Shown piece by piece: positions 1 to 52,035 of a stretch of 64,000 nucleotides of DNA. Every line of letters begins with the position of its first letter. The stretch's first letter is position 1. The position numbers were made by a program, and so were the translations under genes. This stretch comes from Branchiostoma floridae (lineage: Eukaryota; Chordata; Leptocardii; Amphioxiformes; Branchiostomatidae), in the NCBI RefSeq assembly GCF_000003815.2, contig NC_049987.1, forward strand, positions 19,117,952-19,181,951, given 5' to 3'. The notes under the pieces are model-generated. The model was given only the letters and a program-made list of their open reading frames with translations, was not told the origin of the DNA and made no database searches.

Positions 1-343
1 CTGCTACTTTTCTGTTACCAAATTTAGTTGCTTGGTGACATTCAAGCCTTGAGTTACATTAATTGGTAAAGTTGCACATGAGGAAAAGAATTTGCACAAA
101 AACGTTCTTACAACTAAAGTTGTACAACTTAAGTCACATTTCAATATGTTGATCATATGACATTGTATACTAAGCATGACATTAATATCAAAATCAATGG
201 GTTTTCATGGCCCAAACTTATACAGAGAGTTTGCCATTTTGCCTTTTCCTGCAGCTTCAGCTTTACTTACATCTTTTGTACAATTACAAACTCATGAGAC
301 AGGAAAAATGTTCACGGTCATTTTTGTTATTTTATTATTGCAG

Positions 344-428
344 GCATCAAAGATTATCCAGCCTGTACCAGTCCGAATGTCACCAGAGGGGCAGACATAC
401 TCAGACTACAGGCCCAGGACCTTCTCTG
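344..428 (+). CDS. REPS1: REPS exon encoding the IQPVPVRM segment
   Basis: The acceptor follows a T-rich tract ending ttattgcag and the donor is TCTG|gttagt. The 28 codons read ASKIIQPVPVRMSPEGQTYS and onward to FSG; IQPVPVRM is a block I recognise from vertebrate REPS1. The exon starts in phase 0 and ends in phase 1. It is the first exon in the window; bases 1-343 are upstream intron with nothing recognisable. Confidence 0.8.
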
Positions 429-3400
429 GTTAGTTAACACGTCAATTAGAGATAGGGATAGAGAGCATGTTATTTACCAAGACATGACACTTGGGCAGTG
501 ACCTGTAATCACAGAAGAAACCACCGAATGAGCGAAGCAAAAGCACAATTTCTAATGTTCTCTGATGATGCATTTTTTTAAATTTTGTGTTCACGGTGAC
601 ATAAGGCCTGTTAGTGACCTAAAACAGAGAATATGCCACTGAGTGAGGGAAGCAAAAGTCTGTGATATACATTGTAGTGTGAACTGTAATGTGCTCTGAT
701 GATGCATTACTTTGTTATATTGCACAATCCAGGTTATTGGAATGTGGAATTCAGCTGTATTATTGTTTTCTTACATCCTTATCAACAGTTGGTTCTGTCA
801 CAGCTTATCCCATGACAGAGAAATCGTAAAACAAACTACAGTGCCATAACTCGTAGAAGGGTAAGCAGTGTTATATTAATGGAAAATACAAAAGTTCTGG
901 ACCCATAAATATAATTATGATGATTATTGTATGAGAAACAACTTTCTTATGTTAAGAACATGTATCAACATTCTTATCAAAATTCAGCCTTTGCCTGTTA
1001 GATTTAAAAGCATCTGTGAACTTGTCATTTGGAGAATCGTAACAAATGTCTGACATTTTGTTGTTCTGTCCATCAGAACCAATCCCAACGGACGTGGTAA
1101 ACTTGCGCAGGGAGCGGTCGGGCACCAGTCCGAGCAAACATCCCAAATCTGGCGACACGGCAGAGTTCACGCCTGGCAAAATCGCCCCTCCCCCTCCAAG
1201 CTCACGCTCAAAGAGTGCCAAATCCTCAGGTATAACTTCATTTTCTAATCTAAGAAAACCTTCAAATCTTCTTCCAGGATCGACACATGGAACTAAACTA
1301 TTAAACTATACTTTTTAACCCTTTAAGAGCCTATAGAAACTGACGCTTTCTTTATTGAAAATCATTATTATAATAGTGTCTTTTATTGCAGATGGATATA
1401 TAACAACATTTCTGTATATGTTTTGAGTGTTTTGACTAATTTTCTATTTCTATAAAGCAGGCAGGTGATGATGGCCATGTTGGTGTCCTTGATTTGCATT
1501 TCGGTGCTAATGGCCATTTTGGTGACCTTGATTTGCATTTCAATGCTGACGCTGTACCTCTAACTATTAATTGTTTTATTGAACTGTAAACATATTGAAT
1601 TATGATACACATATGGCATAAAACCAAAAAATTGCACATTGTGTATGAGAACTTCTGTTATACTAACAATAATCATTACAGAATGCACAGTGTCACTGCG
1701 ATTCATGTGTACATGTACTTGCTGTCTTTTCCGTCATTAAGTTTCGCTGCTGTGTGAAATAATGCTACAAATATTGACTAATGCAAGTTTAATTTCAGAT
1801 GCTGTAAAGGCTACTGTCATTTTGATCTCATTCTAACAGATTGCCTTCCATTTCTACATTTTTTCGGTCTAGTTTTGAAGTAGTGAAGGAACAGCAAGAG
1901 GAAGCGAGAAATCCAGTTTATACTTGAAAACTCTCTTTCACAAATTTTCTTTGTTTTGAAATGTGTCATTCATGTTAGCATGTTCTAAGTGGTGTACACA
2001 CAGAAAGTGCAAACTGTAATGAAATTGAACAAAATGTAAATGAAATTGTCATTTGCAATCGCAGATCTGAGGATATAGCTCAGACATGGAAACACAACAA
2101 TCTTGCCCCATACTGAGTACAGAAATAAAACATTGTATATTGGTTTACCGTCCACTTCTGTATTTTATTCCTTCCACATTGCCGTTTCCTTATACATTTG
2201 TATTTCCATTAATTTTATTTCAGTTTGCTTCATATGTCGTTCCATTTTGCACTTTATGTACACCGTCATAAAGCTGATGTCACATAGCTGACAAATAGCT
2301 AACCTGACGAGTCTAGGAGCTCAAAAGTATGTTGTTGAAAACCATCACTACACAATTCTTTCTGTGATCGCTAATGTTTGCAGGTCAGCAAGCCCTGTCT
2401 GATGCCATAGGGTAGATTTAGATGCAAAAATGTGCTTGATTCCTTTAGATTTTCAAATTTGATCTACAAGTGAGTCCAAAGTTTATTTACAAGTGTTACG
2501 CCAACTTTACCGTGCGTATGAAAATTGTTGAGCATGAAAGTTTCCTTCCGTATATCGCAAGCAGAGGAAGAGATGGAAAACGGAGTCCCTCCCCACAAGA
2601 AACTGACACAGACCGTGTCGGACACCATCCGGATGAGACCCAGGCTTGCAGAGAAACTATCCCGTCCAAGGTACCCGGCAATAACCCCTCACCCCCCGTA
2701 CCCTCTCTCAGTCCCCACTGTACTCTGTTTCTGTTATCATAACCGTCATAGACTGTACTTATTAATCGTAATATACGTGAAATCCAACTTGCTTGAGATA
2801 GATCTGCTACTTGTAAATATATGACATGTACATATATCTCCTTTATTTTGTTGGTTTTCTGTAGAATCTAGTCAAACAGGTACTTCATATAGCAAATATC
2901 CATTTAAACTTTTATGCATTGGCATTACCTCAGAGGGGGAGCCATATTACAAAAGGTGGTAGTCTCCAATACTGCTAACTGATGTCAACTTAAACGTTCT
3001 GAAAAGTCTGCATTATCGCAATCATAATCCATGTGATCACCTTATTATGATCGTATAGACTCATCCTAGCATTAATGTTATAGTTGTGTAGATTGATGTA
3101 ATGTTATAATTATTTCATCTTTCATAACATTTTCTTTGCATGTTTTGCTCTCTTTATTTGATGTTTTCCCCACCCTCATCATTAGGTCTTACTCGGGAAC
3201 CAGTGTCGGAGTGCATCACCCGCCCCCCCTGGCCATCAGCCCCCTGGCCCAATCCGATAGCCCCACCGAGTCCCAGTCGGGGGGTAAGAAGGAGGCCCCC
3301 CTGCTGCCTCCGCCCCCTCCCCGACCTCCCCCCAGACGCCAGCAGACCCACTCTCGCTCCGTGTCCCTAGACCTGAACCGTGTCTTCCTCCACAGGGACA

Positions 3401-6400
3401 GTAAAGGTTAGGACGCCAAACGTTTTCTCACCGGACCTTCCGTCGTTCTTCCAGGTTTCTTGTTGCTGTACATTTGTAGACGTCTCTCTAGGCCCCGAGT
3501 ACCTAACCCGTGTTTTATCCTACGTCACCCCGTCCAATCGAACCCTCCGAAACCCATGGAATCAAATCAGCTGCGACCCAACAAATTGTTTCCTAATTTG
3601 CCAAAAACACAACTTTTGGCAAACCATACCCATGTGATAGGGTTTCATCTTTTTTAAAAGGTTGTTTTCAGATTGAAAGTTTTGGCCGTTTCCAAATGAT
3701 CAGCATGGCAGCGTACATTTAATCTTAGAACTCAAATGAGGGGACACCTTGCGAACCATCTTATTTCCAAACTGCCACAATTCTCAATCAAAATCTTTTT
3801 AGAAATGAGACACTATCCCACATGAAATAGTGGGTTTGTCGATGAAGGTTCGATATCCAGGTAATAAGACACGCCAAAAAGCAGTTACTCATTGACAAGT
3901 AACTGGATATGATTTTTAAACGATCAGACGTTTCAGATAGCATCCACTATCCTTTGTCAGTGACACTGTGACGATGGTGGGTTTATTTTGCTATATGTTG
4001 TGGTTTCGGTGAGTTAGGAAGAGATTTCGGGTCATGGCCGATTTGAGTCTGAGTTTCGAAGACTTTGATCAAACTGGGTGTTCATGTGTGAGTCGTAGTA
4101 CTGAAAACACTAATAATTCTGCTTCTTTCTTCATAAAACTAACTCTTGTCTGTAAGTAGCAACAGGGTTTTTTCTTACCTATGTTCTGCTTCTTTCTCTC
4201 TAGCCCGGCAAACAGCCCCCCAAACCCAGCCTACCTCTGCATGGGCTGACATAAGCTGGTTGGAGCCTGTTACCTAGCCTATAATCTAACCTATGACATG
4301 TTGAAACTCTTTTCGTGTGATACATTTTGTACCTCTCATAGCTGAGCTGAGTTACTGACTCTTGAGATTGTGTATTTTCTGTAGACTATTTTAGTATTTG
4401 GTTTTCAGGTCTGTTTTGAAACTTTTATGCTATAGACTATAGTTTTACAGTGTGTTGATTTCTTTCTAACTCTGTACCCTTTTCCCAATGACGTGTCCAT
4501 TGTCGTTGTCCTTGGAACCCCGGAAATAGACGAGTTTGCACTTTGATTTGTAGATTACAAAACTGCTTGCGTCGCGGGAAAGCATTGAACGTACATTTCA
4601 AGTGTTACAACACATATGATTGTTGACGAAAATAATGTATGTCTGTAGTTATGCCAGCAGTTTTTGTATTTTGTATAACTAGTGTGAACTCGTCTATTGT
4701 GCTGTTATGTTGTGTTAACCTTCAGCTACAGTATGTACATATACTGTCATAAGCAGTATATGGTCTCGCCTGGTAGTAGAGACACCTAGTGGTTAATGGA
4801 TGAATTGCAGCCAAAATGTTTTACTGTGTAAGTTAAGGGATAGTAAACTACACATAACATACTTTTGCCAGGATGATGTTATTTACTTACTTGGAGAATT
4901 GTAATCCTTAGAAATCGTAATTTTCTTCAGCTTACGCTGTTCTAGATGAAATTTGTGTTACCCTTGAATAATGGGAAGACAAGGCTCTAGCCAGCTTCCG
5001 TTTTTCTGTCAATTGACGGAAATTTGCGGCGTGTGACGGAAATTTTTTTAAACCAATCCGTCAACCTTGACGGACAAAAATTCTTGGTGGAAGCTACAGG
5101 CGGCCTGGGACGCTGTCCACAGTCGGAAAGCTGCACATTGTTTGTTTTGCTATTGTTATGATTGTTGACTTAGTGTGTCGGCGCCCTTTCGCATATGATA
5201 ATCTCATTAAAAACCCGTTTTTCAAGGTCTCAGTTCCGTCTTTCTAACTTAATTTTCGCGGTTTTCGCGACAATGGGAATTGGCTGACGGAAAAAATTTT
5301 CGAGCTGGCTAGAGCCCTGTTGGAAGATCATGCAAAGCGTACAAGTATGACAAAAAGGCAGCAAAACATAAGTGTAAAAAAGAATTACGTTTTTACCGAT
5401 GGAATAGGTTCAGTATGCCGCCAATAGGTCACCCCTTCAGTGAGATACCATCTTTAGAGCACACAAAAGAAAAATTCACTTTGTACAATGAAAGTCATTT
5501 TGTTGAAATTGTGTTGATCTTTTGACAATGTCAATGTCATTATTGTGAGTTAAGATAAATTTTACTTGCTTTTCCTTTTAAATCTCAATGATGTATTTCG
5601 TGTTGTTTTAGGCAAACACCCCGCCCCCCAGCCGTTAGCCCCACCCCCTGCCGTACCCCCCAGACATGTGTCACCGGCTACGGTAAGTTCATGAACTATG
5701 AATGAATGAATGTTTCATAATGGCAGACATATTTAGGGACTTAAAAAATTTTTTTTTAAATTGTCAAAAAGCTAATGCATTGCCCAATGTTGAATTTGAG
5801 TTATAATCCTTTCCACACCTAGTGTATAATGTGTTCATAATGTATATGGCAGTGCCCATCTTCATTTTTTAAGCCCTTAGACCACACAGTTGTTCAAGTG
5901 TTGAATGGTCATTCATAATGAGTCATACATAATAAGATCATAGTTAACATACACCTTTTTTACAGTACAAGCTTTATTGACTCAACAAAAAGTACAATAA
6001 CTGGTACTTTTGCATGGTCAACTATCAACTAAAAAAAAAAGAAAAAAATCTTTTGCCTCGGGTACAAGTTTTTGGGCTCATAGTTTGTAGCACTCAAGGA
6101 TTATCAGGGACCAGATCAAAAGAATATTTCAAAAATGCCCTTTTCCACTTTTCTTTCTCCAGAAGGGGCCCAAAGTGGTTCAACAGAACAGTGAACAGGC
6201 TATGCCAATCAGCCCAACCCCCAAGACTACCCCCAACAACGTGGTCAACTTCATCACAGCGGAGGCCGCTGTCCCAGCGGAAGGGTTGAAGCACAGCAGA
6301 ACGATGTCCCTGGACAGCAAAGCTGTGAGTAACAGACAGCTGCTGTTCACTACTGCTGTAACAGTTTAACTGTTAAATGTTTGGATAGCATTTCATTGTA

Positions 6401-9400
6401 TTATGTAACTATGGCGGTCAAGTCTCCAGTTTTGTGCATAATTGCAAGTTGTTGGTACATGATTGTATGTTTGTACATGCTACTGTCCAGTGTTGGAAAT
6501 TGCATTTTGACATATGTCAATCATCACAAAAAGAAGTGTGCAAAATAGATATGGGAATGGTGAAATGCAAAATCAGGACTTTTCCTGTTTCTCTTTATGC
6601 ACAGAGCAAATGCCCAATATGTTTTGTGTAAAGCCTTGTTGCAGTGTCTGTCTGATTAACAAAAGGGAGTTTACGGTGTGGATGAAATTGTTAACGGCAT
6701 GATATTCTGCGATCGTCTGTCTACAACACATGCACTAACACTTATACATGTATCATTATAACAAAATGATACATGTAGCTGTTGGGCCATGCTTACATGC
6801 TAAAAGGTTGCACAGCATAGCTTGCTATCTATCCTGTTCTAGCTACGGTTTGCTCCTTCTATTGCTTCACTTACCTCATATATAGTCTAGATCTGGCACC
6901 CAATGATAGAGAAATGACCGTCATTGAGATATGTTCGTAAAATTTATATAGACCAGCCCTCCAACCCGCTGGAGGGCTGGGACAGAGGATGATGCGGAAT
7001 ACACCATGTTATATTTTATTTATGTCGTACCCACTTGAGAAAGCACATATTTGGATGCGAAATGCACCAGAAGTTGAGAAAATGTTGTGTCCTGGAACAA
7101 AAGATTGTAACACAACAGCACTTCTAACGTCCGAATAGGGTATTCAAATTTTCAACCGTGCCGAATTCGGCCCGTTCGAAATAGTTCGATTTACTCGAAG
7201 GAAGCCTGTGTGATACAACTTAGAACCCGTGTGATACGGAAAGTTATCACACGGTCCGGAACACCCGTATCGAATGTTTTTGTGGCCCAGGTATGACCTA
7301 AAAAAGTTATCACACGGTCCGGAACACCTGTATCGAACGTTTTCGCGGCCCAGGTATGACCTAAAAAAGTTATCACACGGTTCGGAACACCTTTATCGAA
7401 CGTTTTCGCGGCCCAGGTATGACGTAAACTGTAGTACATGGAAGGCCTGATTGACTTTAAGTTGCATTATTTGGGTCATCAAAATAGATGAAAATTATTT
7501 CTCTATCAGCCGCAGGTTGCTAGATGAGGACAAAATTGTGTCATACTAGAGAAGCAAACCAAAGCTAGAATATTGTGCATACCAGGCTGACACAGCAAGG
7601 GTTCCTTAACATACAACTTCTCTGATTTAGTTCTCAGTTGCTTTGCTTTGTTTAACAAAGTGCTTGGTAGCTTGTTTAAATGTCTATGTTGCAAAGTGTA
7701 TATATTGCTTACTCACTCTGATGTTACCTTACTTGGCTGAAGTTTAAAGTTAAATTTCCTTGTTGCTGGCTTTTGCAGTTCCATATGTTTGGCTTTTCCT
7801 TGGTGTTGTTTTTGGTTTTCCCTCTTTAACTCCTAGTTTTGTAGGATTATTGTCTTCTTTTGTTTTGGGGACAAGTGTTTGATCTTTTGTGTTCTGTTTA
7901 AAAGAATTATTTGGAAGCTTGATGAAGGTTAGATATAAGATATGCCAAACATCAGTTACTCCAGTAACTGGATATGATTTTTGAAAATGGTCAGACGTTT
8001 TATGTAGCATCCAAATTTTGTCAGTGACACTGAACATATCTGTACTCATTAACAACTGGAGCTACCTGTAATTAACTCATTTGCATCAACCTTGTCTTGC
8101 CTTTCTCTTACTTTTGTTTCCTGTTAAACTCTCTTTAAAATTTGTCTTCACCTCCTTTGCGTATCAATTTATCAATGAGTCAAGGTATAAAAGCTGCTCT
8201 TCAACAAGATCTCCTCAGTGTCACTGACAAAAGGTAGTGGATGGTATCCAAAACGTCGTACCGTTTCCAAAATCAGTTTCTTGAGTAACTGCTATTTGGC
8301 GTAATTATTTGGAAGTTGTTTTTCCTTTGGTTGCTTTGGTTTATTTTTCGTTTTTTTTGGTCCCGATGTCTATGTAGAGGTTTGCTGTATGGTGGTCTGA
8401 GTTGTCATAACCGGTATATATACAGTTGCTGTTGTTTTTTTCCCCTCCCTCCCTACTTTTCGCTTTAGGGATCCGCTTTTAGAACCAAATGGACTTTTCG
8501 TAGGTCTGTCTCCTTCCAGCCCGAGGTACGGACCCACTCACCGACAAACTTGCCAACGCATGTCCACCATTTTGTTTTCTAAAGGAAACCTAGGCAATAC
8601 TAGAGCATTAAATATGGAAATATTCTGGATGAGGCAATCTGTATGATGCACAACATTCCCACAATTACATCATTTCATACTTTGAGCTGTTAAAAACGGC
8701 GCAGAAACAAGCCGCACAAGAATTATATTGGAACCCCCTAAAATTAGGTCCAGATCCAGTCAGTAAACATTCAGCTTGTTAAGTCCAAAGTTGTAACCGC
8801 TCAAAGAATGCAATCATGATGTACATGTAAATGTGGGAATTTAGTGCACTAGATGTCAATATCATACAGATTGCCTTATCCAGAATGTTTCCACTTTTAA
8901 CGCTCTAATATTGCTGAGGTTGCCTTTAATTTTCGTTTTTTTTTACCCACCACTAACAAGCATGGGTGACTCTCAGAGTGTAATAGCATGGCTGTACCTG
9001 AACCATCTTTTGTTCTGTTTTTGTCTTTTTCATTTCATTCTTGTCTAGCCATTGTGTTTGTTGGACACATTATGAGCTTTGGTGGTACAGACTTCAGATT
9101 TAACCCCCAGCATACTAAGCGAAGAGTTCAGCAGCAAATTTGTATTGGTTATAGGGTTAGGCATGTATGAAGAAGATTATATTCTAGTGTTATGTTGCTT
9201 TCAAGCTTTGAAAAAAAAATTAACTATTCAATCTAGAGGTATTTGTAACAAGAAAATTGGCCTTTTGTTCATATCTTTCAAAGTTGTGAAAAATTAGAGT
9301 GTTTGTAATAAAAAACAAAAACTGTGTTGAATAACAAATTACTTTGAACATGACCAAGTATCTTATTCAAGACTTATGTTTTGGTGACGGTCTGTCACCT

Positions 9401-12400
9401 TCGTCATTTAACTTCATTTATTTCTAGAAATATTGTTCTGCAGACCCCTTTAAAACTGATTCCAGGGATTAAAGTCTGTTATTGAAATTATTTCCATTTT
9501 TAAATTCCACCCCGTTTTGCTGAAAGCTCAGAATTTTTTTTCAATATAAATTGATGTCTATATGTGTTTGATTCTATTATATTTCTTACCGTTTTGGTTT
9601 GTTGTAAGTCTATTACGAATTTGCCAGAAATAGAGGAATTGCGTTGAGCTCAACAATTTGTATGTTATATTATATGTGTTTGTGGATGTATGCATGTGTG
9701 TGTGGTACATACATTGTTGATTCCCATCATAGAAAATCATGTTTGTCATCTGTGTGTAACTGTGTATAATTTATGATTATGTTATTATAATGTTATAGAG
9801 TCGAGCTACTACTGTGTAACTGTTACTGTAACAGTAATGTATCAGGCTATGATGGTTTGATTATATGGATGACATCCACACGTGTGCATTAATTTTTGTC
9901 CATCTCCTACAATGACAAAGTTTCTACCCTACTGTAAATTGTACAAAGCAGCTGCAAAATGAGAAATATTTGCCATATACATTATATGCCGAAAAAATAT
10001 CAGAAAATTTTTTGAGTTCCCAGAGGATGTTATTCATTTAATTGAACCAGCATGGCCTCATGTAGTCTTGATAATGTATACTATGCTCTAAGACCTACAT
10101 ATACATGACTTGTATAGTAGAAAGAAATTTGCTGCAAACAAATTGTCCTTGATGCTTTTAAGACAATTTTTCATGTATGCAAAAGTGTATCTAAATCAAA
10201 ATGATTACATCGTTACAGTAATATGATTAGCATGCTAGTTTGACATGAAACCATAACCTGTTGTCATTGGTTCCTTTCGAGAGAAATTTTTCTTTTGTTG
10301 TTGTTCTAACCAATGAATTTTCTTGTTGCTGTGTTGCAGGTACCTTTAGCGACAGATACGCCCCCCACCCCTCCCCCCAGACCACATGACCAGACAAGTG
10401 AGTACACATTCTTACTCATTTCATTACATATTCTAACCTGGGTTCCATCAGAATAGTGAAAAAATCAAATCGACCTGCAAGCCACTCTTGTATACGAGCG
10501 ATCGCGATGATGTCTCGGTGACGCAGTGGTAGGCAAAAAGCAGGTGTTTGGCAAAAGAATGATTTACATATTAACTTAGTAATTTGATCTGATAATTTAA
10601 ATGTCAATTTTTAATCTAATCTTCTGACGTCCTGGTAGGCACCAGCCGCCGAATACCCCGGATAGATTTAACAACAACAGTGATCGCTCGTATTCTCAGA
10701 AAACAATAACAAAGATACATGATTTAAGTAATTGTATAAGTAGGGTTTTAAGTTTCTCAAGATCTTTAAATAAGGTATGTTTCATACTGGAGCAAGGTAT
10801 TTTTTGCTAAATTGTAAGTGTTCATTAGATTTTATTTTCTGTAATTTCAGGAGACAAAGCTGAAGACACACCAGTGGAACCTCCAACTAAGCCTGTAAAG
10901 AAGGTAACCTTTAGAAAAATGTGTGTGTGTGTGTGTTTGCTTTTGTTCCTGGATATTTGTGGTCAGCATAACTTAAAAACCTCTGGATGGATTGCAATGA
11001 TATCTGGTATGTCGATAGGGCTTGGGAAGACAACAGTCAAGTTTGATTTTGGTCACAAACCCCCACCTACCCCTTTGGTGTAGTTCTAACATTGAATTAT
11101 ACCCTCTTGAAATGATCCAGTTTTGTTAGCACATTAAGTACAACTTGTGTAAAACCAGACTTGAGAACCACACACACTGGAATGAACTTTTTGTATCATT
11201 GGGATCTTCATTAAGCTTGACATTGTCCTTAAAGACCTTCGGTTTTACATCTTATCTGAGGGGACATCCCTTGTAAGGTGTATTTCCCAAGGGCACAACA
11301 TGGACACCTCCTAGGGATTCAAACCCAGAACCTTTAGATTCTCAGGCTACATTGCAGTATTTACTATGCATATTCTTAATAATGGGAATCATGGCAGAAA
11401 GAGGCTGTCAAAAATCACCTACCTGACTTTTAGAACATGAAAAACTCACATTGGCATGGTTGTCCGGCCTCTGAAGAGTAATTTGACGACAAAAAAAGGG
11501 AAACATTTACGGCGGAATTATATTATGCACCATCAAAACATAGGTGGTGACCTTTTCACCCCATTTCACTGTCTGTAAACAACACCAAAACACCTAACTT
11601 CTAAGGCCTACAGCAACCACAAATATCGCTAAAAATCTGTTTTTTCAACACAATGTAGAAGCTACAACCCTTACCTATAATATGCACATCCAAAATTCAA
11701 ACATATCCCAAGAAAAACATTTCTACAGCCACTTTGGGCAAGGCTACCTAAGCATTCTGAATAGGCTGAAACTTGGTCATCTGTCCGGAAATACCGAAAT
11801 TTGCCCCTCAGGCAACATTGCTAACAACCATGCCATTATTCACAGAAGGCACCCACACCTCCGCCAGTGAGGCCCAGGAACAGACACAGATCTGGAGAGG
11901 ACAGTCAGAAGTCAGAGCTCAGACAGGAAGAACCCAGTACAAACGACAGGAGAAGACACGTGTCGGCACCCGCTACTAGAGTACCCCCCATTCCACCTCC
12001 GTAAGTATGGACTATACCGAATAACAAAGTTCCGTCGATGTAGGTTAGACATCCAGGTAATAAGATTCGCCAAAAAGTTACTCAAGCAACGGGATATGGT
12101 TTTGGAAACGGTCGGACGTTTCGGATAGAATCCACTATCCTTCGTCAGTGACACTGTTCTTTATCCGACGTCAATAACAAAGTTCTTTATCCGACACAAC
12201 CACACGTGTGGCCAACGTCTGTCATCTTCTTCAGGGCAAGAATGACACATTTATTTTGCACTGCAGCTAGGTTTCTTTGCAAGCAATGCTGTCCTAAACG
12301 TTAGGTACTATCAGATACATGCTGCTAACTAAACACCTGGAATAACAAGATGGTTCCAAATGTAAAGCATTACTGCAGCGCACACGGCGTGCATTAGAAT

Positions 12401-12881
12401 GATTCTATGGAATCCCTAATGTGATAACGGGCCTACATGTATGAGCTCGTGTGATAGCCCAAAATATCACTCTGTCTGAAACCCAAAATATCTTTCTGTC
12501 TGGAACGTAGTCTCGGCCAAGGTATGATATGAAGTACTTGAAACGTCGATGAAGGTTTGACACCCAGGTAATAAGATACCCAAGCAACTGGATATGATTT
12601 TGGAAATGGTCAGATGTTTCAGGTAGATTTCACTACCTTTCATCAGTGATACTGAAGAACTTGAAGTGTTGATTTTCTAAATGCTTTTGACTTTTTTCAG
12701 ACCCGTCAGAAGAAAAAGGGAGGATATCCAGGCTGCCATCAGGGCGCACAAGGAGCGGAACACGGTCCTGTCACGCACCAACAGCGAGCTACAGGGGGAC
12801 CTGGCAGAGGCCACGGAGGAACGCGTAACGCTGGAACTGCAACTTCAGAAACTCAAGCCATTCGGGGTCACCGGCCTATAG
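344..12881 (+). CDS. REPS1: REPS1/2-like RalBP1-associated EH-domain protein, 3' part of gene (10 exons seen)
   Basis: This is the spliced 3' portion of a gene for a RalBP1-associated EPS-domain protein, a cytoplasmic adaptor linking Ral signalling to endocytosis. Joining exons 344-428, 1077-1229, 2562-2670, 3186-3406, 5612-5682, 6163-6324, 10340-10397, 10851-10903, 11846-12000 and 12701-12881 keeps one frame throughout and gives 415 residues plus a stop. Family hallmarks seen are IQPVPVRM at the start, RSGTSP, a proline stretch followed by THSRSVSLDLNR, many PPxPPR class SH3 ligands, and a C-terminal coiled coil (KREDIQAAIRAHKE ... LQKLKPF), which in REPS proteins is the RalBP1-binding end. 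The N-terminal EH domains are not in the window, so the gene is partial. Invertebrates usually have one REPS gene, so the 1-versus-2 symbol is nominal. It converges on the SLC16-like gene. Confidence 0.88.
1077..1229 (+). CDS. REPS1: REPS exon with RSGTSP motif and first PPPP run
   Basis: The acceptor is tccatcag and the donor is CTCAG|gtataa. The 153 bases keep phase 1 on both sides. The product contains RRERSGTSPSKHPKSG and APPPPSSRSKSAKSS, a serine- and proline-rich linker. Vertebrate REPS1 has a similar RS(H)SGTSP block before its proline region. Confidence 0.82.
2562..2670 (+). CDS. REPS1: REPS exon with tandem NAGNAG acceptor
   Basis: The exon encodes EEEMENGVPPHKKL, then TVSDTIRMRPRLAEKLSR. 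The acceptor reads aagcag, so splicing can occur after either AG (exon start 2562 or 2565), adding or dropping one alanine without changing frame. The donor is CCAAG|gtaccc. The exon enters in phase 1 and leaves in phase 2. Its assignment rests on frame continuity with both neighbours. Confidence 0.72.
3186..3406 (+). CDS. REPS1: REPS proline-rich exon with SRSVSLD motif
   Basis: This is the longest internal exon (221 bases, phase 2 to 1), with acceptor catcattag and donor GTAAAG|gttagg. It encodes several SH3-type ligands (LLPPPPPRPPPRR), then QTHSRSVSLDLNRVF, which closely matches the HSRSSSLDMNR block of vertebrate REPS1. The RSxSLD serine looks like a basophilic-kinase or 14-3-3 site; that is inference. 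GC content is much higher than in the flanking introns. Confidence 0.9.
3838..3970 (-). repeat. Penelope-type tail repeat with degenerate hammerhead core
   Basis: On the minus strand it reads CACTGACAA, a stem-loop (AGGATAG/CTATCT), then GAAACGTCTGA, followed by the family's AACTGCT...GGTAATAAGAC flank on the plus strand. The CUGANGA core has an A in place of the conserved G, so the copy is probably inactive. Confidence 0.6.
4203..4276 (+). CDS. Possible alternative last exon of REPS
   Basis: A strong polypyrimidine tract and acceptor (cttctttctctctag) precede an open stretch. From the phase-1 end of the preceding exon it reads ARQTAPQTQPTS, then AWADISWLEPVT, and meets a TAG at 4274-4276. 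Composition is proline/glutamine-rich like the rest of the linker. It could be an alternative terminal exon giving a protein without the coiled coil, or a decoy acceptor. No transcript evidence is available. Confidence 0.25.
4980..5320. mobile_element. MITE with GGCTCTAGCCAGC termini
   Basis: Starts CAAGGCTCTAGCCAGC and ends GCTGGCTAGAGCCCTG, 17-base near-perfect inverted termini. Internally it has several TTGACGGA/TCCGTCAA units. There is no coding capacity. Short non-coding elements of this sort are common in amphioxus genomes. Confidence 0.7.
5612..5682 (+). CDS. REPS1: REPS exon, APPPAVPPRH SH3-ligand segment
   Basis: The 71-base exon enters in phase 1 and leaves in phase 0. Its acceptor is gttgttttag and its donor is CTACG|gtaagt. 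It encodes GKHPAPQPLAPPPAVPPRHV and SPAT. The PPAVPPR core matches a similar segment in vertebrate REPS1. Confidence 0.82.
6163..6324 (+). CDS. REPS1: REPS exon with SRTMSLD motif
   Basis: The 162-base exon is phase 0 on both sides, with acceptor ttctttctccag and donor AAAGCT|gtgagt. The product includes AMPISPTPKTTPNNVVNFIT and ends KHSRTMSLDSKA, a second copy of the basic-x-S-L-D motif seen in the exon at 3186. Confidence 0.82.
7241..7429. repeat. 3 x 63 bp tandem repeat
   Basis: Units start at 7241, 7304 and 7367 (AAGTTATCACACGGTCCGGA...GGCCCAGGTATGAC). Because 63 is a multiple of three, the minus strand stays open as a 21-residue repeat; I regard that as incidental. A diverged related stretch lies at 12410-12535. 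Confidence 0.8.
7919..8037 (-). repeat. Penelope-type tail repeat, degenerate
   Basis: Same family as the repeat at 12031 (TGATGAAGGTTAGA ... GGTCAGACGTTTT...GTCAGTGACACTGA). Stem II of the hammerhead-like motif has been lost. Confidence 0.55.
8213..8306 (+). repeat. Penelope-type tail repeat, plus orientation, degenerate core
   Basis: Reads CAGTGTCACTGACAAAAGG, then a GGTAGTGGATGGTATCC hairpin and AAAACGTC. It lies about 180 bp downstream of the opposite-strand copy at 7919, making a loose inverted pair. Confidence 0.55.
8469..8525 (+). CDS. REPS1: Probable cassette exon of REPS (57 bases)
   Basis: A long C/T tract ending cgctttag precedes 57 bases that end CCCGAG|gtacgg. The length is a multiple of three and both neighbouring exons are phase 0 at this junction, so the exon can be included or skipped freely. 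It reads GSAFRTKWTFRRSVSFQPE in frame, again with a basic RRSVS serine motif. Conservation is unknown to me, so it is a candidate rather than a certain exon. Confidence 0.5.
9371..9412 (-). repeat. Degenerate copy of the second hammerhead-like repeat
   Basis: The plus strand TTTTGGTGACGGTCTGTCAC followed by CTTCGTCA is the complement of the stem II and core region of the motif at 26262. Flanks are not recognisably preserved. Confidence 0.35.
9845..10056. mobile_element. MITE, family A (GGCCATGTTGATT... termini)
   Basis: Left end GGCTATGATGGTTTGATTAT then ATGGATGACATCC; right end GGATGTTATTCATTTAATTG then AACCAGCATGGCC. They are inverted copies of one another. Internal sequence has no ORF. 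Confidence 0.65.
10340..10397 (+). CDS. REPS1: REPS exon, TPPTPPPRP segment
   Basis: This is a short exon (58 bases, phase 0 to 1) with acceptor gctgtgttgcag and donor GACAA|gtgagt. It encodes VPLATDTPPTPPPRPHDQT, another proline-rich SH3-ligand segment. Confidence 0.82.
10851..10903 (+). CDS. REPS1: REPS exon, PPTKPVKK segment
   Basis: The 53-base exon (phase 1 to 0) has acceptor tgtaatttcag and donor AAGAAG|gtaacc. It encodes RDKAEDTPVEPPTKPVKK. The PPxKPV(R/K) motif recurs in the same place in vertebrate REPS1. Confidence 0.85.
11210..11350 (-). repeat. tRNA-derived SINE remnant
   Basis: On the minus strand a B-box-like CTGGGTTTGAATCCC is followed by TGTGCCCTTGGGAAA, the post-tRNA motif seen in other SINE copies here. 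The A box is not clear. Confidence 0.5.
11846..12000 (+). CDS. REPS1: REPS basic linker exon before the coiled coil
   Basis: The 155-base exon (phase 0 to 2) has acceptor tattcacag and a perfect donor CACCTCC|gtaagt. It starts KAPTPPPVRPRNRHRSGEDS, continues with a charged stretch (KSELRQEEPSTNDRRRHVS) and ends RVPPIPPP. Confidence 0.85.
12031..12155 (-). repeat. Penelope-type tail repeat with near-intact hammerhead core
   Basis: Plus-strand landmarks are GTCGATGTAGGTTAGACATC, GGTAATAAGA, and GGAAACGGTCGGACGTTTCG ending at GTCAGTGACACTG. The ribozyme-like core is listed separately at 12110-12154. Confidence 0.65.
12110..12154 (-). ncRNA. Hammerhead-ribozyme-like motif (minimal, dimer type)
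   Basis: On the minus strand the order is GTCA, then CTGACGA (12142-12148), then a six-pair stem II GGATAG/CTATCC closed by a six-base loop, then GAA-ACGT-C. The palindromic ACGU would form stem III only between two molecules, as described for Penelope-like element hammerheads. The stem I partner is CGAC, pairing three of four positions with GTCA. This is sequence pattern only; self-cleavage is not shown. Confidence 0.6.
12544..12655 (-). repeat. Penelope-type tail repeat with CUGAUGA core
   Basis: The minus strand carries canonical CTGATGA, stem II AGGTAG/CTACCT and GAAACATC. ACGU has become ACAU, which weakens the intermolecular stem III. Located directly upstream of the last REPS exon. 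Confidence 0.6.
12701..12881 (+). CDS. REPS1: REPS last coding exon: C-terminal coiled coil
   Basis: The acceptor is gacttttttcag and the stop TAG is at 12879-12881. The exon encodes VRRKREDIQAAIRAHKERNT, then VLSRTNSELQGDLAEATEER and a leucine-rich end LELQLQKLKPFGVTGL. The pattern RKxxIQAxIRxxKExNxVLxRxNSEL ... QLxxLxPF is the signature C-terminus of REPS1/REPS2 and is the strongest evidence for the gene call. In vertebrates this region binds RalBP1. Confidence 0.93.
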
Positions 12882-17875: not shown

Positions 17876-18467
17876 CATTTTGATCACACCGTACATTATA
17901 CATTATTTTATTTTATTTTATTTCATTTTATTCACATTTATTTCACATTTATTTGTTTATAGGACAAAAAGCATATCCGTTATGTGAGTTTTCTGCCCAA
18001 TAAACATAAAACAAATAACAGTCAATGTCAACGGGAATTTATAAATACAACAAATAACAAAGATTTGCATTGGATAAGCCAACTCAGCATTAATGGAAGA
18101 AAAATAATAATTGCAGAGATACAATAAAAACGAACTAAGCTGTGACAAGTACAGACACAAGGCTGGCTTAGCAATCAAATTGAACTGAATGAATTTTCCA
18201 GTCTTTGTAATGTAGGCATTATACATTAGACGGGTTACTTACTTGTAACCTTCTTTGAACTGAATTGTCTTATCAGCACTCAACACCTGACGTAATATAG
18301 AATGATACATATCTGTACCACACAGCTACGCTCTCCAAATTTGTCAGGATAACAACAATATGATTTAAACTTACATTACTATGCCCTTTGATGATAAGTG
18401 TACCGGAGTTGTTCATAGTTATGGTATGAAACCTGTTTCTACCAGATCAGGGTATGATAAAAGCTAA

Positions 18468-18932
18468 GTCGATGAAGTTTAGACACCCAGGTAATAAGAC
18501 ATGCCAAATAGCAGTTACTCAAGCGACTGGATATGATTTTGGAAACAATCAGACGTTTCAGATATCGTCTGAGACACTGAAGAGACCTGGTAGAAACAGC
18601 TTTTATCATATGCCAAAATGCAGTTACTCAAGCAACTGGATGTGATTTTTTTTTGGAAACGGTTAGATAGTATCCACTACAGTGGTCAGTGACACTATCT
18701 TTGGTCAGTGTCATGGATGAAAGATAGTGGATACTATCTGAAACGTCTGACCGTTTCCAAAATCATATCCAGTTGCTTAAGTAGCTGCATTTCGGCATAT
18801 GATCAAAGCTGTTTCTACCAGATCTCTTCAGTGTCCTTCAAAAAGATAGTGGAAGATATCTGAAACGTCTGACCGTTTCCAAAATTATATCTAGTTACTT
18901 GCATGCATTGAGTAACTGCTTTTTGGCGTGTT
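18468..18932. repeat. Cluster of four Penelope-type tail repeats in inverted arrangement
   Basis: Two minus-orientation copies (18468-18582, 18607-18700) face two plus-orientation copies (18702-18800, 18826-18932). The segment 18575-18833 is a long imperfect palindrome, from CACTGAAGAGACCTGGTAG to CTACCAGATCTCTTCAGTG. The plus copy at 18702 has an intact stem II and GAAACGTCTGACC, but its CUGANGA is altered to TGGATGA. Confidence 0.65.
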
Positions 18933-21100
18933 CTTGTGTGTATTGTAACAGTACTTCTAAAAGGAGCACTAAAGTCCAGAAAAACATTTTATTTTCCAAT
19001 GCCGTTGCCAATGGAATGCATAATCAGCCGACGCTTTACCAAGGTCAGAAATTGTGCAAAACAGTTACCATCTCAGTTAGATGGTTACGAAGGTTTCAAA
19101 AAGGTTATAACAAAAGGGCAGCAAACACCCACATGATGGTAATATAATGTGGAATTAACTCTACTCGTCTTACAAATTGCGTCGGGCGGTTACAAATTGC
19201 TACGCTTGACCCTGCCTCAGTATATCCGCTTGCCTACAAGCATTTCGTGGAAACATCTCACGTTCTTCAAAACATTTCCGGGAATTTCCAAACCAACGAT
19301 TACGATTTAGATTTGCTCAGTCAAAGACACGCCCGATCTATCCGCCTGTATACGCGTGCTGAATCGATATTTTGTTTAACGTGTCATGGCACAAGTCATG
19401 CCGGAGCTATGGAACCCGCAAATTGGATTGATGTAGCGTTTAACAACTTAACCGCACATTGATTTATTGAATGCCGTTTCCCAAAACGGATGTCTCGTCT
19501 TGTTTTCACATCAATTATGACTTGCTAAAATCGTTAAGACTTTATTATTAGCAGGCGTCTATATGATTGACTTTGACTTTATTGACGATGAGACAAGTCA
19601 CTACAATGGTCTGCCTAGGCAGCTTTGGGCTGGTAGCGGCGGACCCTACACAAATGCGGACGAACATACAAAGAATTCATCGCAAGGAACATTACAATAT
19701 GATGCATGATATAATATAATGACAATGGCCACTTTTCATACCATAGCGATGGCTTTCTAAGTGTGGGCAACGTTTTTATTTGGATATAACATTTTCAAAT
19801 AGTTTGCTCTCACTTGATTTTAGGCCTTAAAACTTCTCCTTTTGTATCTTTGGTCCCATACCCATCTATATTTTTGATGACTATGGTTGCAGACAGCTTT
19901 TGATGTAAGGGCGGTGTTGTGTAGGTTTGGTCCTCCTAGTCGCTTGCTCAGGAACTGCAGGGGCGTTTTTGTTGAAATATTTCAATTTGCAAACATGATC
20001 GAAATGGGTGATGTTTGTATCTTGAAGTCTTATTGGAGGTGAACATAAGACAAACCAAGCATGTGAAAGAATGGTCTAGATGTTTAGTCCTGTGGTTGAG
20101 GAGCACTTTTTATTTTTGCTGGATTTTTTTGCCCTTTTTTGCGCCTTATTGGGTCCCCAGAGGATGTCATCCGTAAAATTAAGTCTATCTGGCCTTATCA
20201 CCAACCGCAAAAGGTGTCATAATATTTCACATGCCAGGCAAGGAGGAGACCAACGGTTGCTAGAGACTGCTATAGATATACATGTATATTGACAGATACA
20301 TAATGTCCACAATGATCTATGTTTACATGTATGCTGGATATTTAAGAGATGAATTTGCTTGTAATAATAACAAGCGGGAAGTGCCATAAATATGACAGTG
20401 GACATATACTTTGTATTTAGAATAAAACGACAGCTACAGATTGAAGAATAAACTACATGTAATAACTGCAATACTTGTCGTCAAGTCCTTTATTCTCTTT
20501 AGGTCAACACAGAAATTCAAGAAATATTAAAGTGTTACGAAGTCGTTATAGTGTAGTATAACCACATCTCAGTTGTGTACAAAGACGTACCGATCTTCAG
20601 TTTGCAAATACTAGCCATTTTTGGTCCCAGATATGAACTATTATTTCTTATGTAACAAGCCAAATAGCGACACATCCCATTTAAGAAGGTCATTTCAAAC
20701 GAGTTAGAAATCTGGCTATACATATCAAAGCAAACACATCAATGGTACATCTATATTTGGCAAAGAAGTGACTAATAGTAAGAAGGATCTTCAATTGCCC
20801 AATATGTACAATGGATCAAGTCATTAATACCCAGCGAAATAAAAACAAATCCCCTTTGCGATGGTCATTGTATATGAATTAGAAATCTGGCCATACATAT
20901 TAAAGCATATCAAGGGTACAACTATATTTGGCAAAAAGGTGATGAAGAGTAAGAAAGAGTTGTGTCCTGTACTTTGCCGGCCTACTTTGCTTTTCATCCT
21001 CCCCCGCCTGGCTCTTGAGTACAATCTTCACAGTGTTTTTATCACCAGAATCTCGTTTAATTGTTGCTTTCCTTTCATCTGCTCGCTCGTGAAGTTTCAA
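18933..21100. other. Intergenic, no gene recognised
   Basis: No coding unit supported. 20162-20200 holds a solo MITE terminus (GGATGTCATCCGTAAAATTA). 20645-20780 and 20830-20960 are diverged tandem copies sharing AAATCTGGC(T/C)ATACATAT. Confidence 0.45.
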
Positions 21101-22398: not shown

Positions 22399-24135
22399 GG
22401 TGTAGTAGTATATAACTGCTGCAGTATAGCCAAGTGCACGGCTCTATGCGTAACGCCTTTTCATTTGCGTACGATGTTGAGGCGTATTACGTCTGACATA
22501 CGGTGTATGGAAGTACGCACGGGGGCATTGTATTTCTTAGAAAATCTTGAACCAGAATTCTAAATGTAGCATCATTGGCATTGGGCTATTCTATTGATTT
22601 CAAAGGGGTGAACATCAACTGCCTGAACGATAGTTTTGCAGATTAAAAAAATGGACACGGTTTATCAGATTTTAGACATTCTGTAACATCAAATATGAGT
22701 TTCGCGTTTTAATTATAATATGTGCACACTATCATCTTTAAGTTTGATTCTTATACATATCACAGTCGTCTCAAATCCCTGAAGTGTATTCACCTTTCCG
22801 CGAAAATTACGAAGTAGAATGACCTTAAGTAACACAAGTACTGACAAGTCAAATGGTTGGGTTTTCGTGCGTCAATGGTAAATTTAGAAACGAGAATAAT
22901 GATAGGAGATTTGGTAATAGCGAACCAATAGTAGTTCACTTCGACAATTACCTATCAAGAAAAGTCCGGACTGCATACGAAAAAAGGACGTTGCATGTAT
23001 TTGTCGTTGATGGGGAAAGGTCCAATAATGTATTTTACCTGGCTAAATTGGTATTTTGACCTTCAATTGTTTTCCCATTAATGAAGTAAACAAGGATAGA
23101 GCCGTAACGAATATTGATAGATGGTCCTGAAAGTATTCTAAATCTGATTTTTTGGGGGCCATATGGATAACGTCATTAGGTTTTATTGTCCCTAATATTA
23201 TTTTTTCTTTGAGAAAATACAGCACTTTGGTACATACCACTGCAATGGAACTATCTATCTTTTTCATGTGTATAATGAAAAAAGCTACAAACGCACGTTG
23301 CGCAAATTGATATCTTCTACTGATCTGTAATTATTACAAAATGTTTTTTGATTAGATGAAAACAATAGTTTAGTCAGGTTAAATATTCTGTCAGTGAATA
23401 TATCTTGTTCATGTTCCTTGGTGCTTTCACTGTACATTTTCTACTTTCAAACACCGATCACCGTCTTGCATGTGGTATTGGGGCCTGAGCAGGCTTTTAG
23501 CTAGGATTTTATCATAGGATGTCAAAATTTCTTGCCGTTCGGCAAGCGCTGCAGGTGTGAGTATTGTAGGGTGTCTGGGGACATGCTCACTCAGAAAAGT
23601 TTGAAATTTATAACTCTCTGAAACACTATTTCCCACATCTTGAGGTGCAAATTTGGGGGAATGAAGCAAATTTACTGTCAGACAGGCCACATGTGACCTG
23701 TAGCATCCCTGGTCGATCAGAATTTCATGCTTGTCAGAGGATATGCTCCCCAGTGTAAGGTCCGTACATTTTGAGTTATTTTTCTAACAGGCCGTACAGC
23801 AACGTACGCCTGTACGGCTGACTAGCTATAAGCTAATCTATTCCCATGTCGCACATTACTCATGCCGTCTGAGTAATGTGCGACATGGGAATAGATTAGT
23901 ACATGCTCAGTAAATGTTGTCTATGGACACGGAATCATTTTAGGATCATTTCTTGGAATTCTCTAAGAACCAATTCCGGAAATTTAAGCGTATGGATACG
24001 CCTTAAGCCCGCTAATTGGTTAAAAGGATTGCGTTTCTGAATATATTTCTTACAAAACATGTTTTTTTTATCAACCTTAAGAATTAATCTTCTAAAATCA
24101 AGTCGATCTACACAAACAAGTCAAGATATAATAGT
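22399..24135. other. Intergenic between the 124-residue ORF and SLC16-like gene
   Basis: No gene recognised. It contains the perfect hairpin at 23833-23899. The region just right of 22398 is the presumed upstream region of the small ORF and includes TTATATAC about 20 bases before its ATG on the minus strand. Confidence 0.4.
23833..23899. repeat. Perfect 30-bp inverted repeat with 7-base loop
   Basis: Arms 23833-23862 (CTAATCTATTCCCATGTCGC and ten more bases) and 23870-23899 are exact reverse complements, separated by TGCCGTC. No mismatch in 30 pairs. Confidence 0.9.
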
Positions 24136-26124: not shown

Positions 26125-29100
26125 CTGAAACAAACATATGCAAGACGAAGTCATTCACAATGAAGGTTAGACATTCAAGTCATAAGATATGTTCCGTGAA
26201 TAGTTTCGTTGGTACGTCACTGAATAAAGAGACTCTTTTTACACAACCATTGCTTTATTCTCACCAACGTTTCGGTGACCGTCTGTCACATTCTTCAGGG
26301 CAATTCTGACTGGTTCACATTGTACTGCAGGACACGTGTCGCTGCTTACAGTGTGTCGCTGGACACCTGTCCTGTAGTACAATGTGAACCAATAGAATAA
26401 AGCAACGGGTTTGTAAAAAGAGTCTCTTTATTCGATAACACATGTTAGATACATAGTAGTTACACAAGCAACGTAACAGTCAAACGTTTCAGACAGCATC
26501 TACGTGTACTATCTTTCGCCAGTCACACCGAGCAGATTTTGTTGAACAGCAGTCACTGCCAATGTCTGTGTCGTCTTCGTCTGCTGATCAATCTACAATA
26601 ACCATTAGTATTCATGGGAGGTTGAAATATGTTTTCCCTAATGCAGTGATGCTTAAAACTAAACTTGCTGTAGTACTGTTTGACAAACAATTATATCAAT
26701 TGTGAGATATTGCTGTATGTGCTCCACAAGCGCTAGCCACGTTATATACAGTAACAATGAAAACTCCCAACTTTGCTTAGAGCGTCTGACAGAATTTGTA
26801 GCATAAGGTGAGGTAAAGATTCATTAGCATAATTTATTCTTACCTGCGGTGGGCGGGCCCAAGATGAATGACACGGAGCACGACCCCAGCGTGAAGCCCC
26901 AGGCTAGCGACATGTTCTCCACGCCCACAAGATCCACAGTCAGGATGGGCAGGAGGGTGACAAAGCAGCCGTCAAACAAACCCAGGAGTAACACACAGGT
27001 CACAAGCCCGCCAAACGTGCTGGAATGGTAGAGAATCAATCGATCAATCAAAACAGCAGCCACTCTAATTGGTTTAACCACTAAGTGCCGTGCTATCAAT
27101 GGGACTGCTAATAGTGAATGACAGTCAGGATCAATCGACTCACCTACATGCAGGCAACACGAGCGTGACCACAGCTGTGACAATCATGCTGAAACTGTAG
27201 CTGCAGCAATGGACTTAACAGCAGCCACTCTCTCATTGGTCAAGCCACTAATTAACGTGCTATCATTGGTGTAACAGCTTATTGTGATTGACAGGCAGGA
27301 TCAATCGACTCACCTACATGCGGGTAACATCAGCGTGACCACAGCTGTGATGATCATTTTGAAACTGCAGCTGCAGCGTAGGACCGAACAACAGCCATTC
27401 TCTCATTGGTCGAACCACAAATTGCCGTGCTACCTTTGGTGGCATTGGTGGAACTGCTAATTGTCCGGATAAATCGACTCACCTGCATGCGGGTAACGCC
27501 AGTGTGACCACAGCTGTGACGATCATGCTGAGATTACAACTACAACTGCAGTGCAGAACGGAAAAACAGCTTCCCTCTCATTGGTCAAACCACTAATTTC
27601 TGTGCTATCATTGGTGGAACTGCTAATTGTCCGGATAAATCGACTCACCTGCATGCGGGTAACACCAGCGTGACCACAGCTGTGACGATCATGCTGAATG
27701 TCTGGATGTGGAGGCGGTTCAGCTGCACCAGGAACTGTAGCTGCAGTACCGGACCGAACAGCAGGCGGCTACACGTGGACGCTGCACCCAGGATCAACAC
27801 CAGCACCGGCCCGTCAGACACACCCAAATCGGCGGCATAACTCGGCTGTGTTGTAGACATTCTCTCTAAAGTCATTTTCTCTTTCCATTTCCTGTTTGTA
27901 CCATCCCCAAACAATTATTCGTATCGTATCAACTTCGATATTCGATATTAGTACAAACGTACCTATCTTAACTATAATACAATGAACATAAAACACGTCA
28001 ATTTAATTGCAATGGATTTCTTATAACTGTATAACTGTACAAAGACTGGAGTTGATCAATCTAAAACTTGGGTAATTTTCTTTGTCTTGAAAATGACAAT
28101 TTAACTCTGATTTATAGAATGTCAAGTAAACAAATCATATATATTGAACAGCATAAGCATGACGACCTCCGCTACTCAGTTGCCTGTGATCTACCGTTTC
28201 CTTTGCGTTCGATCGGATGAGACCTAGTCTTTACCAGACTGACTACGCTGGCTATTATAGGAAAAAAAATTGCCAGGGGAGGTTTGCTACTAGAGGAGTT
28301 AGTAGGCCTCGCAGTCGGAGAGGAAACATAAACCTAAGCATAAACTGACTCCCCTGGCCAACTTTCCAATTTTTTTTTCGGACAAATTGTACTATCCCCG
28401 CATCCCGTAGGAAGGCCTGGTGAAGGCTTAATGCGACAGTTATCTAATCATCATTGTGAAGTACTCAGTAAAACTGCAGTATTCCAATTTCCGCTTGTAG
28501 GCGCTGCTGACAGGCATTCCAGAACTATGCTCACTATAGCAAACTGTTGAAGGAGATGGGAGGACATATTCGGCATTTGTTAGTATATACTAGTATTATA
28601 GCTCTCTAGAATTTTTCTTTCTCTCCAAAAGCAAACCGTTGGTACGGACCAGATGGACATAAGGGATGTACGTAGTAGACGTACATGGTGTCGGAGATGG
28701 GAGGACATATTCGGCATTTGCTATTGTATGACTTTCCCTTCCAAGACCAAACCGTCGGTACTGACCAGGTGGACATACGGGATGTAGTAGCCGTACATGG
28801 TGAGAGAGATGGCGGCAGTCCAGACTATGAAGACCTCGTTCCTCCACAGAGACAGGTCCAGCACGTAGTTCTTAGCGGGGGAAGTCTTGAACGTCTGCAG
28901 CTGGGTTGGCTGGGATCCCGGCGGGAGAGGTCGGTAGGCGAGGGCGGCGAACCCGACAACTATCTATGGTTAGGACATAGGGATACGAGGAGGAACTTAT
29001 TGCGCGATGATAGCTGTAACACTTATAACGTATGACAAAGTGTATATACGTGGGAGTTGAACTATGTAACGTTACTATTGCTAGAACCAAACAAATGATC

Positions 29101-43558: not shown

Positions 43559-43742
43559 TACTGTAAATGCAGAAATGTTCGCGGTGGTTTTATGTTTATG
43601 TTTTTTCGCGAGGCGAACATAAAACCACCGCAAACATGTTTCCATTACAGTGTATGGAACTACCACAAACTCAAAACCATCGCGAACACTCCACTTTTCC
43701 GCTAACGCAAAATTAAATCCCCGAGAACTAAATGCATCTAGT
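43559..43742. mobile_element. MITE with TACTGTAAATGCA termini (copy 3, decayed right end)
   Basis: Starts TACTGTAAATGCAGAAATGT. The right end AAATGCATCTAGTA is a mutated terminus. Internal ACCACCGCAAACAT and CATCGCGAACAC units are as in the other copies. Confidence 0.65.
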
Positions 43743-51330: not shown

Positions 51331-52035
51331 TAGGCCACATCAAGTAAATGTTATGGATGACATCCTCTGCAGAGTGACAAAATTATGAGATAGCGCGAAA
51401 AGAAACAAGATGGGTAAAAAAAACACAATATGGCTAAAGTTTCAAAATAGACACCATAAACGTTGTAACAAGATTTAAAGTGACAAAGCGTGGCATCACA
51501 ACTAACAAAGGCATCGATTCCAACATTAAAGAAATGAACTAGTGTAGTAAAAGTGATATTCATGGCTTCCATATTGGTTGAACTTTTACAACTATCCAAC
51601 AAGTTTCACTTCTGCAACTATAGCCATGGCTACCTCCCTAGTGACACTTCTACAAGTATGATTATTAGGCTACAACACAACACGGTTCCCTATTTTGGTC
51701 TATCTGACCATCAGAAGAGGAAAAAAAATCTCAGATCTTTACAACCATCCCTGAATAGAGACGGTGGGCGCCATAGACTTCCTGCAACCTATGATCCACT
51801 GCTCACTGAGTCACGTGTTCTATCTGCATAACGTGACGTCACGACAGCAGTGTATTGTTCATTCCTTGACAAAGGCTGATGCTATGCAGTCGAAAATTTG
51901 GTTGAGTCCATTTTTTTGTGTTGGAAATTACAGTTCAACTAGTTCAAGAAAACAAATCTTGTTTTTTTTCTGAAATCAGGCTTAAGTTAATGAGCGCGCT
52001 GATGTCATCCATAAAATTTACTTTCTGTGGCTTTA
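51331..52035. mobile_element. MITE family B, third copy
   Basis: Left TAGGCCACATCAAGTAAATG then TTATGGATGACATCC; right GATGTCATCCATAAAATTTA then CTTTCTGTGGCTTTA. An inverted 38-bp-type unit (CTACCTCCCTAGTGACACTT) is at about 51631. Confidence 0.6.

Follow-up and report, generated by a model that had tools for sequence, protein, structure and literature searches.

A damaged hammerhead of a Penelope-like retroelement in Branchiostoma floridae, and related lineages in which the active-site pair 3-8 appears to be naturally reversed

In Branchiostoma floridae, a 64,000-nt stretch of contig NC_049987.1 (positions 19,117,952 to 19,181,951; hereafter the window) carries on its minus strand a short insertion, c12118, which begins with AGTGTCAC and ends with CATCGACG (Table 1). 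This copy is a 5′-truncated insertion, flanked by a 13/13 target-site duplication (TSD), a match of a quality equalled in 5 of 4000 random pairs; the same TSD went unseen when c12118 was scanned as one of the genomic loci (L022) with a narrower flank. The insertion is antisense to a downstream exon-like plus-strand frame at 12693-12866, so that sense RNA of that gene would lack the ribozyme strand. A preliminary description of the locus had placed the motif in a REPS intron, an assignment that found no backing: three plus-strand frames of positions 1-9902 held no Pfam domain at E 0.01, and the frame at 12693-12866 gave Pfam matches below the cut-off only, mostly to coiled-coil. Elsewhere in the window, a minus-strand frame at 29730-30251 matches the Major Facilitator Superfamily (E 5.4e-17). 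Two long near-perfect hairpins (23827-23905 and 43567-43645) resemble miRNA models on either strand, with scores under the cut-offs, and are perhaps short inverted-repeat transposons.

Read on the minus strand, the motif at 12115-12148 consists of CTGACGA, A, GGATAG, the loop TGGATT, CTATCC and then GAAACGTC, in agreement with the preliminary description (CTGACGA, a stem II of six pairs closing a six-base loop, then GAA-ACGT-C). It contains the type I minimal hammerhead core (CUGANGA...GAA-A15.1...U16.1-H17) with one extra A after A9, and its ACGU palindrome is loopless, leaving stem III without a loop; the cut position was placed by analogy with known hammerheads. Stem I is GTCA/CGAC, in which the pair beside the cut is C/A and 3/4 pairs form; the usual stem I of the family, GTCA/TGAC, is paired 4/4 and complete beside the cut. 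The CGAC form recurred in one further case, L023, among the inspected loci L014-L051. The earlier wording "near-intact" holds for the core but passes over the added A and the mismatch in stem I. Because of that mismatch, it is the family for which hammerhead membership is claimed here, c12118 counting as a damaged member only; this copy looks like a decaying fossil and, given the C/A mismatch next to its cut site, is probably weakly active or inactive.

A chance origin of the motif was rejected after scanning dinucleotide-shuffled versions of the window. A scanner that required CTGANGA, a stem II with 5 pairs or more, and GAA matched at two places in the window (12148 and 12646, both on the minus strand) vs a mean of 0.15 per shuffled window, and the core with GAAACRTC after it occurred in 0/100 shuffled windows. 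The covariance-model check proposed in the preliminary description turned out negative, the Rfam hammerhead models giving no match to the motif even at E up to 10; loopless dimeric hammerheads may fall outside these models.

Table 1. Parts of the 123-nt insertion and copies of the repeat in the window.
Feature	Position	Strand	Remarks
Insertion c12118, 123 nt	12033..12155	-	Hammerhead at 5′ end, leader, PLE ORF start
ATG of PLE ORF start, in tail (MSNLHR)	12050..12052	-	From translation of the tail
TSD, 3′ copy, GAACTTTGTTATT	12020..12032	-	13/13 match
TSD, 5′ copy, GAACTTTGTTATT	12173..12185	-	17 nt extra between TSD and element
Hammerhead core and stem II	12115..12148	-	Predicted cut between 12115 and 12114
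Extra unpaired A of c12118	12141	-	Between A9 and stem II
Stem II strands of c12118	GGATAG 12140-12135, CTATCC 12128-12123	-	6 pairs, 6-base loop TGGATT
Stem I 5′ strand GTCA	12149..12152	-	From the sequence
Stem I 3′ strand CGAC	12111..12114	-	Family mostly TGAC; first pair C/A lost
Copy c12616	12546..12653	-	CTGATGA A AGGTAG/CTACCT GAAACATC; TSD 12/13
Copy c3900	3839..3967	-	Core CTGACAA; TSD 10/11
Copy c8000	7921..8031	-	Decayed
Copy c8250	8217..8327	+	Decayed; head-to-head with c8000
Copy c18530	18469..18570	-	Member of four-copy inverted array
Copy c18640	18582..18696	-	Four-copy inverted array
Copy c18730	18707..18824	+	Four-copy inverted array; AGATAG/CTATCT
Copy c18860	18830..18940	+	Four-copy inverted array; 122 nt past c18730

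The repeat is present in nine good copies in the window, and a tenth match, at 26453-26528, is weak (E 1e-6). Four of the copies, at 18426-18940, form two head-to-head inverted tandem dimers with a 122-nt spacing on one side. Matches as good as the TSDs of c12616 and c3900 were seen in 8 and 47 of 4000 random pairs, respectively, and no TSD was found at c8000 or at c18530, the end of which was misplaced in that test; these results cover c12118 and the four copies just named. The three stem II versions named in the preliminary description (GGATAG/CTATCC, AGGTAG/CTACCT and AGATAG/CTATCT) are indeed present, at 12118, 12616 and 18720, and CTGANGA, stem II and GAAA are kept together in 2/9 copies, those at 12118 and 12616. 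Divergence among the copies amounted to 38/278 sites in the hammerhead vs 92/640 in the remaining repeat; as the two diverged alike, nothing in the window copies points to selection once they had been inserted. Across the nine copies no covariation measure exceeded shuffles, 108 to 153 of 500 of which reached the observed values. The core reads CTGACAA (G8 to A, unpaired with C3) in c3900, c8000 and c8250, a change for which decay of the CTGACGA CpG could account.

The genome as a whole (513,431,437 bases, 431 contigs) contains many further copies. A pattern fixing the core and half of stem II had 438 exact matches vs 0 for a reversed control, a figure that counts near-intact cores since full pairing and an intact stem I are not required by the pattern; among the 100 matches listed, the sequence seen most often was exactly that of 12118. 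Searching with the 123-nt element gave 2307 first-look candidates, of which 40 were scored, and 38 loci (L014-L051, including the window copy) were inspected after being picked either with that pattern or for their similarity to the 12118 element. Their 3′ ends coincide, with CATCGAC found by script in 31/38, and their 5′ ends vary, some lying at the AGTGTCAC start and others taking in up to about 190 nt of matched pseudo-LTR; four loci have 0.86-1.12 kb of upstream sequence in common. No pseudo-LTR was recognised upstream of the AGTGTCAC start in 10/38 loci, among which L025 retains a short stretch by eye and the start of L018 is not clean. Longer copies have TATAAAAG about 30 nt upstream of AGTGTCAC, which suggests a presumed transcription start at AGTGTCAC. 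TSDs of 13-15 nt with at most one mismatch were found in 9/31 testable loci, shorter ones or none in the other 22, as counted without a random control. No complete window-family element with both pseudo-LTRs was seen among the inspected loci. Pattern scans of viral contigs and of other genome contigs returned 0 matches in some cases and 7 and 6 in others, the latter with no complete stem II by eye.

The repeat is tied to PLEs (Penelope-like elements) by its position beside their coding frames. An open frame with a YIGE.S motif lies upstream of two such hammerhead ends, and a search of the genome with a 311-aa frame gave 129 matches (1535 first-look candidates, 127 scored). A hammerhead lies on the same strand, 187-347 nt downstream of the PLE ORF, in 16 of the 20 best loci, with a stem II of GGAAAG/CTTTCC in 13 and GGATAG/CTATCC in 3; none was found on that strand within 350 nt in the other four, where L069 and L075 have none at all, L073 has one on the other strand only and L074 has one at 1138 nt. 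Of the window-family ORFs scanned, the two longer ones, L069 and L058, gave RVT_1 scores above the Pfam cut-off, and over the query both share 97% identity with the L043 frame that adjoins the hammerhead; among ORFs of other lineages RVT_1 was above the cut-off in L120 and below it in 6/7. GIY-YIG was matched in 4/12 PLE proteins scanned, always below the Pfam cut-off (E 0.0061 in L043, 0.00058 in L120, 0.00035 in L122, 0.009 in L117), with the YIGE.S motif visible, and gave no Pfam match in L048, L058, L069, L116, L118, L119 and L121; a PDB search with the PLE C-terminus returned nothing relevant. The repeat tail encodes MSNLHR(R), comparable to WMYNLHKR at the ORF start of L120.

The repeat shows features of the PLE type, namely a pseudo-LTR, often inverted head-to-head, a tail that runs into the ORF start, and TSDs; in its element end, its tail, its inverted pairs and its TSDs it matches the PLEs that sections of two papers describe (PMC3846280; PMC11167929). 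That an element end with the ribozyme encodes the PLE ORF start and was inserted with TSDs settles the motif as a retroelement ribozyme of a known kind: it is a PLE minimal hammerhead. The preliminary description had named this Penelope type, and its identification is borne out by the family's position next to PLE open frames and by the retained ACGU palindrome.

Structure was examined across divergent PLE lineages in 40 regions downstream of PLE frames (L076-L115), chosen from the 129 matches at an identity of at most 73%, mostly in list order. The scan fixed TGA, A9, GAAA, the U before the cut and at least 4/5 core-side stem II pairs, and left positions 3 and 8, stem I and stem III free, stem I serving only to break ties; stem II was thus partly selected by the scan, and 3-8 and stem III were unused in selection. 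Hammerheads were found in 38/40 regions (no match in L080 and L101) vs 0 antisense and 0.22 per 40 shuffled regions, and in 36/40 by a stricter scan; one additional match was excluded as chance-like (L112 at 173, with A3/G8 and lacking any stem I pair). Self-complementary bases stand at 15.2/16.2 in 38/38 of these loci, and an extra nucleotide follows A9 in 38/38 (A 34, G 2, U 2).

A set of 22 distinct rows was drawn from the lineage loci (19) and the window family (3); in it, 96.3% of cells were paired vs 58.9% after shuffling (0/500), and the covariation score was 1.073 vs 0.288 (reached by 0/500). Two-sided change was seen in 11/11 pairs, a count reached by 31/500 shuffles; as the rows are related, these events cannot be counted as independent. 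Covariation across lineages is seen in both stem I and stem II, in the palindrome of stem III and in the active-site pair 3-8, and the loopless palindrome, which covaries as CG, AU or GC, argues at the level of sequence for a stem III formed between two ribozymes. The argument from compensatory changes made in the preliminary description, not significant on the nine window copies alone, is thereby strongly confirmed across PLE lineages; the non-compensatory stem II changes that it had offered as a counter-check are not upheld there, although several decayed window copies have broken pairs.

Two of these other lineages have copies in the window. One, at 51866 (+) within 51785-51950, is a PLE hammerhead of the U3-A8 type (TTGACAA A ... 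GAAAATTT) that shares 92% identity with the L098 lineage over 166 nt. Another, at 26193-26352 (-), is 93% identical over 165 nt to the L110 PLE hammerhead lineage (CTGAAGA A TGTGAC..GTCACC GAAACGTT) and lies near the weak tenth copy of the 12118 family.

As a whole, the insertion is very probably best explained as a PLE-derived piece made up of a minimal type I hammerhead, a leader and the first ORF codons, a reading that builds on what was seen directly: the family, its ORF association, the common 3′ end, the variable 5′ ends, the TSDs of some copies and the covariation among lineages. The insertion would then span, in order, the presumed transcription start, the hammerhead, the leader and the first PLE ORF codons, and the PLE open frame would encode a reverse transcriptase followed by the weakly recognised GIY-YIG domain. 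PLE transcripts with tandem pseudo-LTRs would bring two hammerheads together, and the loopless ACGU palindromes of the two may pair into a shared stem III, upon which each would cut after the C of GUC, perhaps with the help of the PLE protein (as passages of PMC11167929 suggest). Reverse transcription would begin within the ORF-start tail and sometimes halt at the RNA 5′ end, giving copies of about 110-130 nt.

The repeat could instead be a metazoan retrozyme, that is, a non-autonomous tandem repeat that has a canonical type I hammerhead and spreads as small circular RNA. The hammerhead and the 122-nt tandem spacing of the array at 18.4-18.9 kb do resemble those of a retrozyme, and part of one report has retrozymes co-existing with PLEs (PMC7229834). 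However, the repeat forms the terminal part of a coding PLE, its tandem unit of about 122 nt is shorter than the published 170-400 nt or so, its stem III has no loop, in contrast to the canonical type I hammerhead of retrozymes with its stem III and loop interactions, and single copies flanked by TSDs occur; for these reasons the retrozyme reading was rejected as very unlikely. Still less probable is the reading that the hairpin arose by chance or has a structural role only, as a non-catalytic stem in the leader of a retroelement, given that GACG and CGTC can extend stem II. The minimum-energy fold of the hairpin does pair GACG with CGUC, and the missing Rfam match also fits a mere stem, but against it stand the covariation of the palindrome, of stem I and of pair 3-8 across PLE lineages, and a lineage scanner that finds 38/40 real regions, 0.22 per 40 shuffled ones and 0 antisense. 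A DNA transposon was rejected as well, no terminal inverted repeat being seen in the three element ends examined.

The PLE-derived piece resembles known systems in several respects. Sections of PMC6155905 and PMC7761336 describe PLE minimal hammerheads in which the non-conserved part of helix III is missing and which lie in pseudo-LTRs, occur in tandem and possibly act as dimers, all likenesses to the present family; the second attributes them to Cervera and de la Pena 2014 and Lunse et al. 2017. Set against these descriptions, the B. floridae hammerheads have the extra nucleotide after A9 in all 38 lineage loci, and G3-C8 or U3-A8 occurs in some of the lineages. The element PAc (Poseidon of Anolis carolinensis), as presented in parts of PMC11167929, likewise has a hammerhead at the pseudo-LTR/ORF junction, it combines RT with GIY-YIG, a domain weakly recognised in the present family, and its reverse transcription begins inside the template RNA, not at the 3′ end; in contrast, its ORF starts at stem II and the cut falls 26 bp inside the ORF, whereas here the ATG lies about 60 nt past the cut. 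The same source reports no cutting by the PAc hammerhead without PAc protein, and that cutting was unneeded for insertion in vitro. An unpaired A10 between A9 and stem II is also found in the CChMVd plus-strand hammerhead (in the portion of PMC3705267 on that ribozyme).

The CChMVd plus-strand hammerhead is a viroid ribozyme and is not known to be a loopless dimeric one. In the 38 lineage loci of B. floridae, the active-site pair 3-8 is C-G in 23, G-C in 10 and U-A in 5, and never unpaired (other 0); the ten G3-C8 loci comprise 5 distinct sequences. A G3-C8 pattern had 204 exact genome matches (89 and 115 by strand) vs 0 when reversed, and among the first 50 matches listed at least one (C2:13494742) had no stem II. 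The 3-8 result has its controls in the 38 loci, shuffles, antisense and the reversed pattern only. On a tree of 8 PLE proteins, one per fetched lineage group, the 3-8 states need 3 changes, with a minimum of 2, and well-supported branches force no more than one change per label; since shuffled labels were as low in 79/200, the tree alone shows no clustering.

Natural U3-A8 covariation has been reported, such covariation having been known earlier only in vitro, in sections of the work of Perreault et al. 2011 (PMC3088659); U3-A8 is common to those variants and the present ones, and those sections do not mention G3-C8. A C3G/G8C double mutant of PAc was made in the laboratory and gave partial rescue (parts of PMC11167929), in contrast to the natural G3-C8 of B. 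floridae, which occurs in other PLE lineages. No description of natural G3-C8 was found in the literature covered, including the relevant passages of PMC3088659, PMC10085705 and PMC11167929, with Cervera and de la Pena 2014 and Lunse et al. 2017, both key accounts of PLE hammerheads, lying outside that coverage. On balance, the sequences modestly favour a natural PLE lineage in which C3-G8 is reversed to G3-C8, which together with U3-A8 would make a natural three-state covariation at the pair that includes the proposed general acid, position 8. Substitutions continue on either side of stems I and II in the G3-C8 lineage, which suggests that the swapped ribozyme is being maintained and propagated. 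It is the G3-C8 form that offers a new lead, the window motif itself being of a known kind.

If the reversal is real, position 8 may be G, A or C provided that it is paired with position 3, and the swap bears on the proposal, found in parts of PMC6155905 and PMC11300833, that the 2′-OH of G8, rather than the base, is the general acid. The wider family makes two points testable, a loopless stem III between ribozymes and the natural 3-8 swap.

A splice-donor-like GTRAR lies at most 20 nt past the predicted cut in 34/38 loci from L076-L115, vs 8.7% of random 20-nt stretches drawn from the same regions. It overlaps the stem I 3′ strand in several lineage loci, and ribozyme and splicing could compete; the 12118 family has no GTRAR there.
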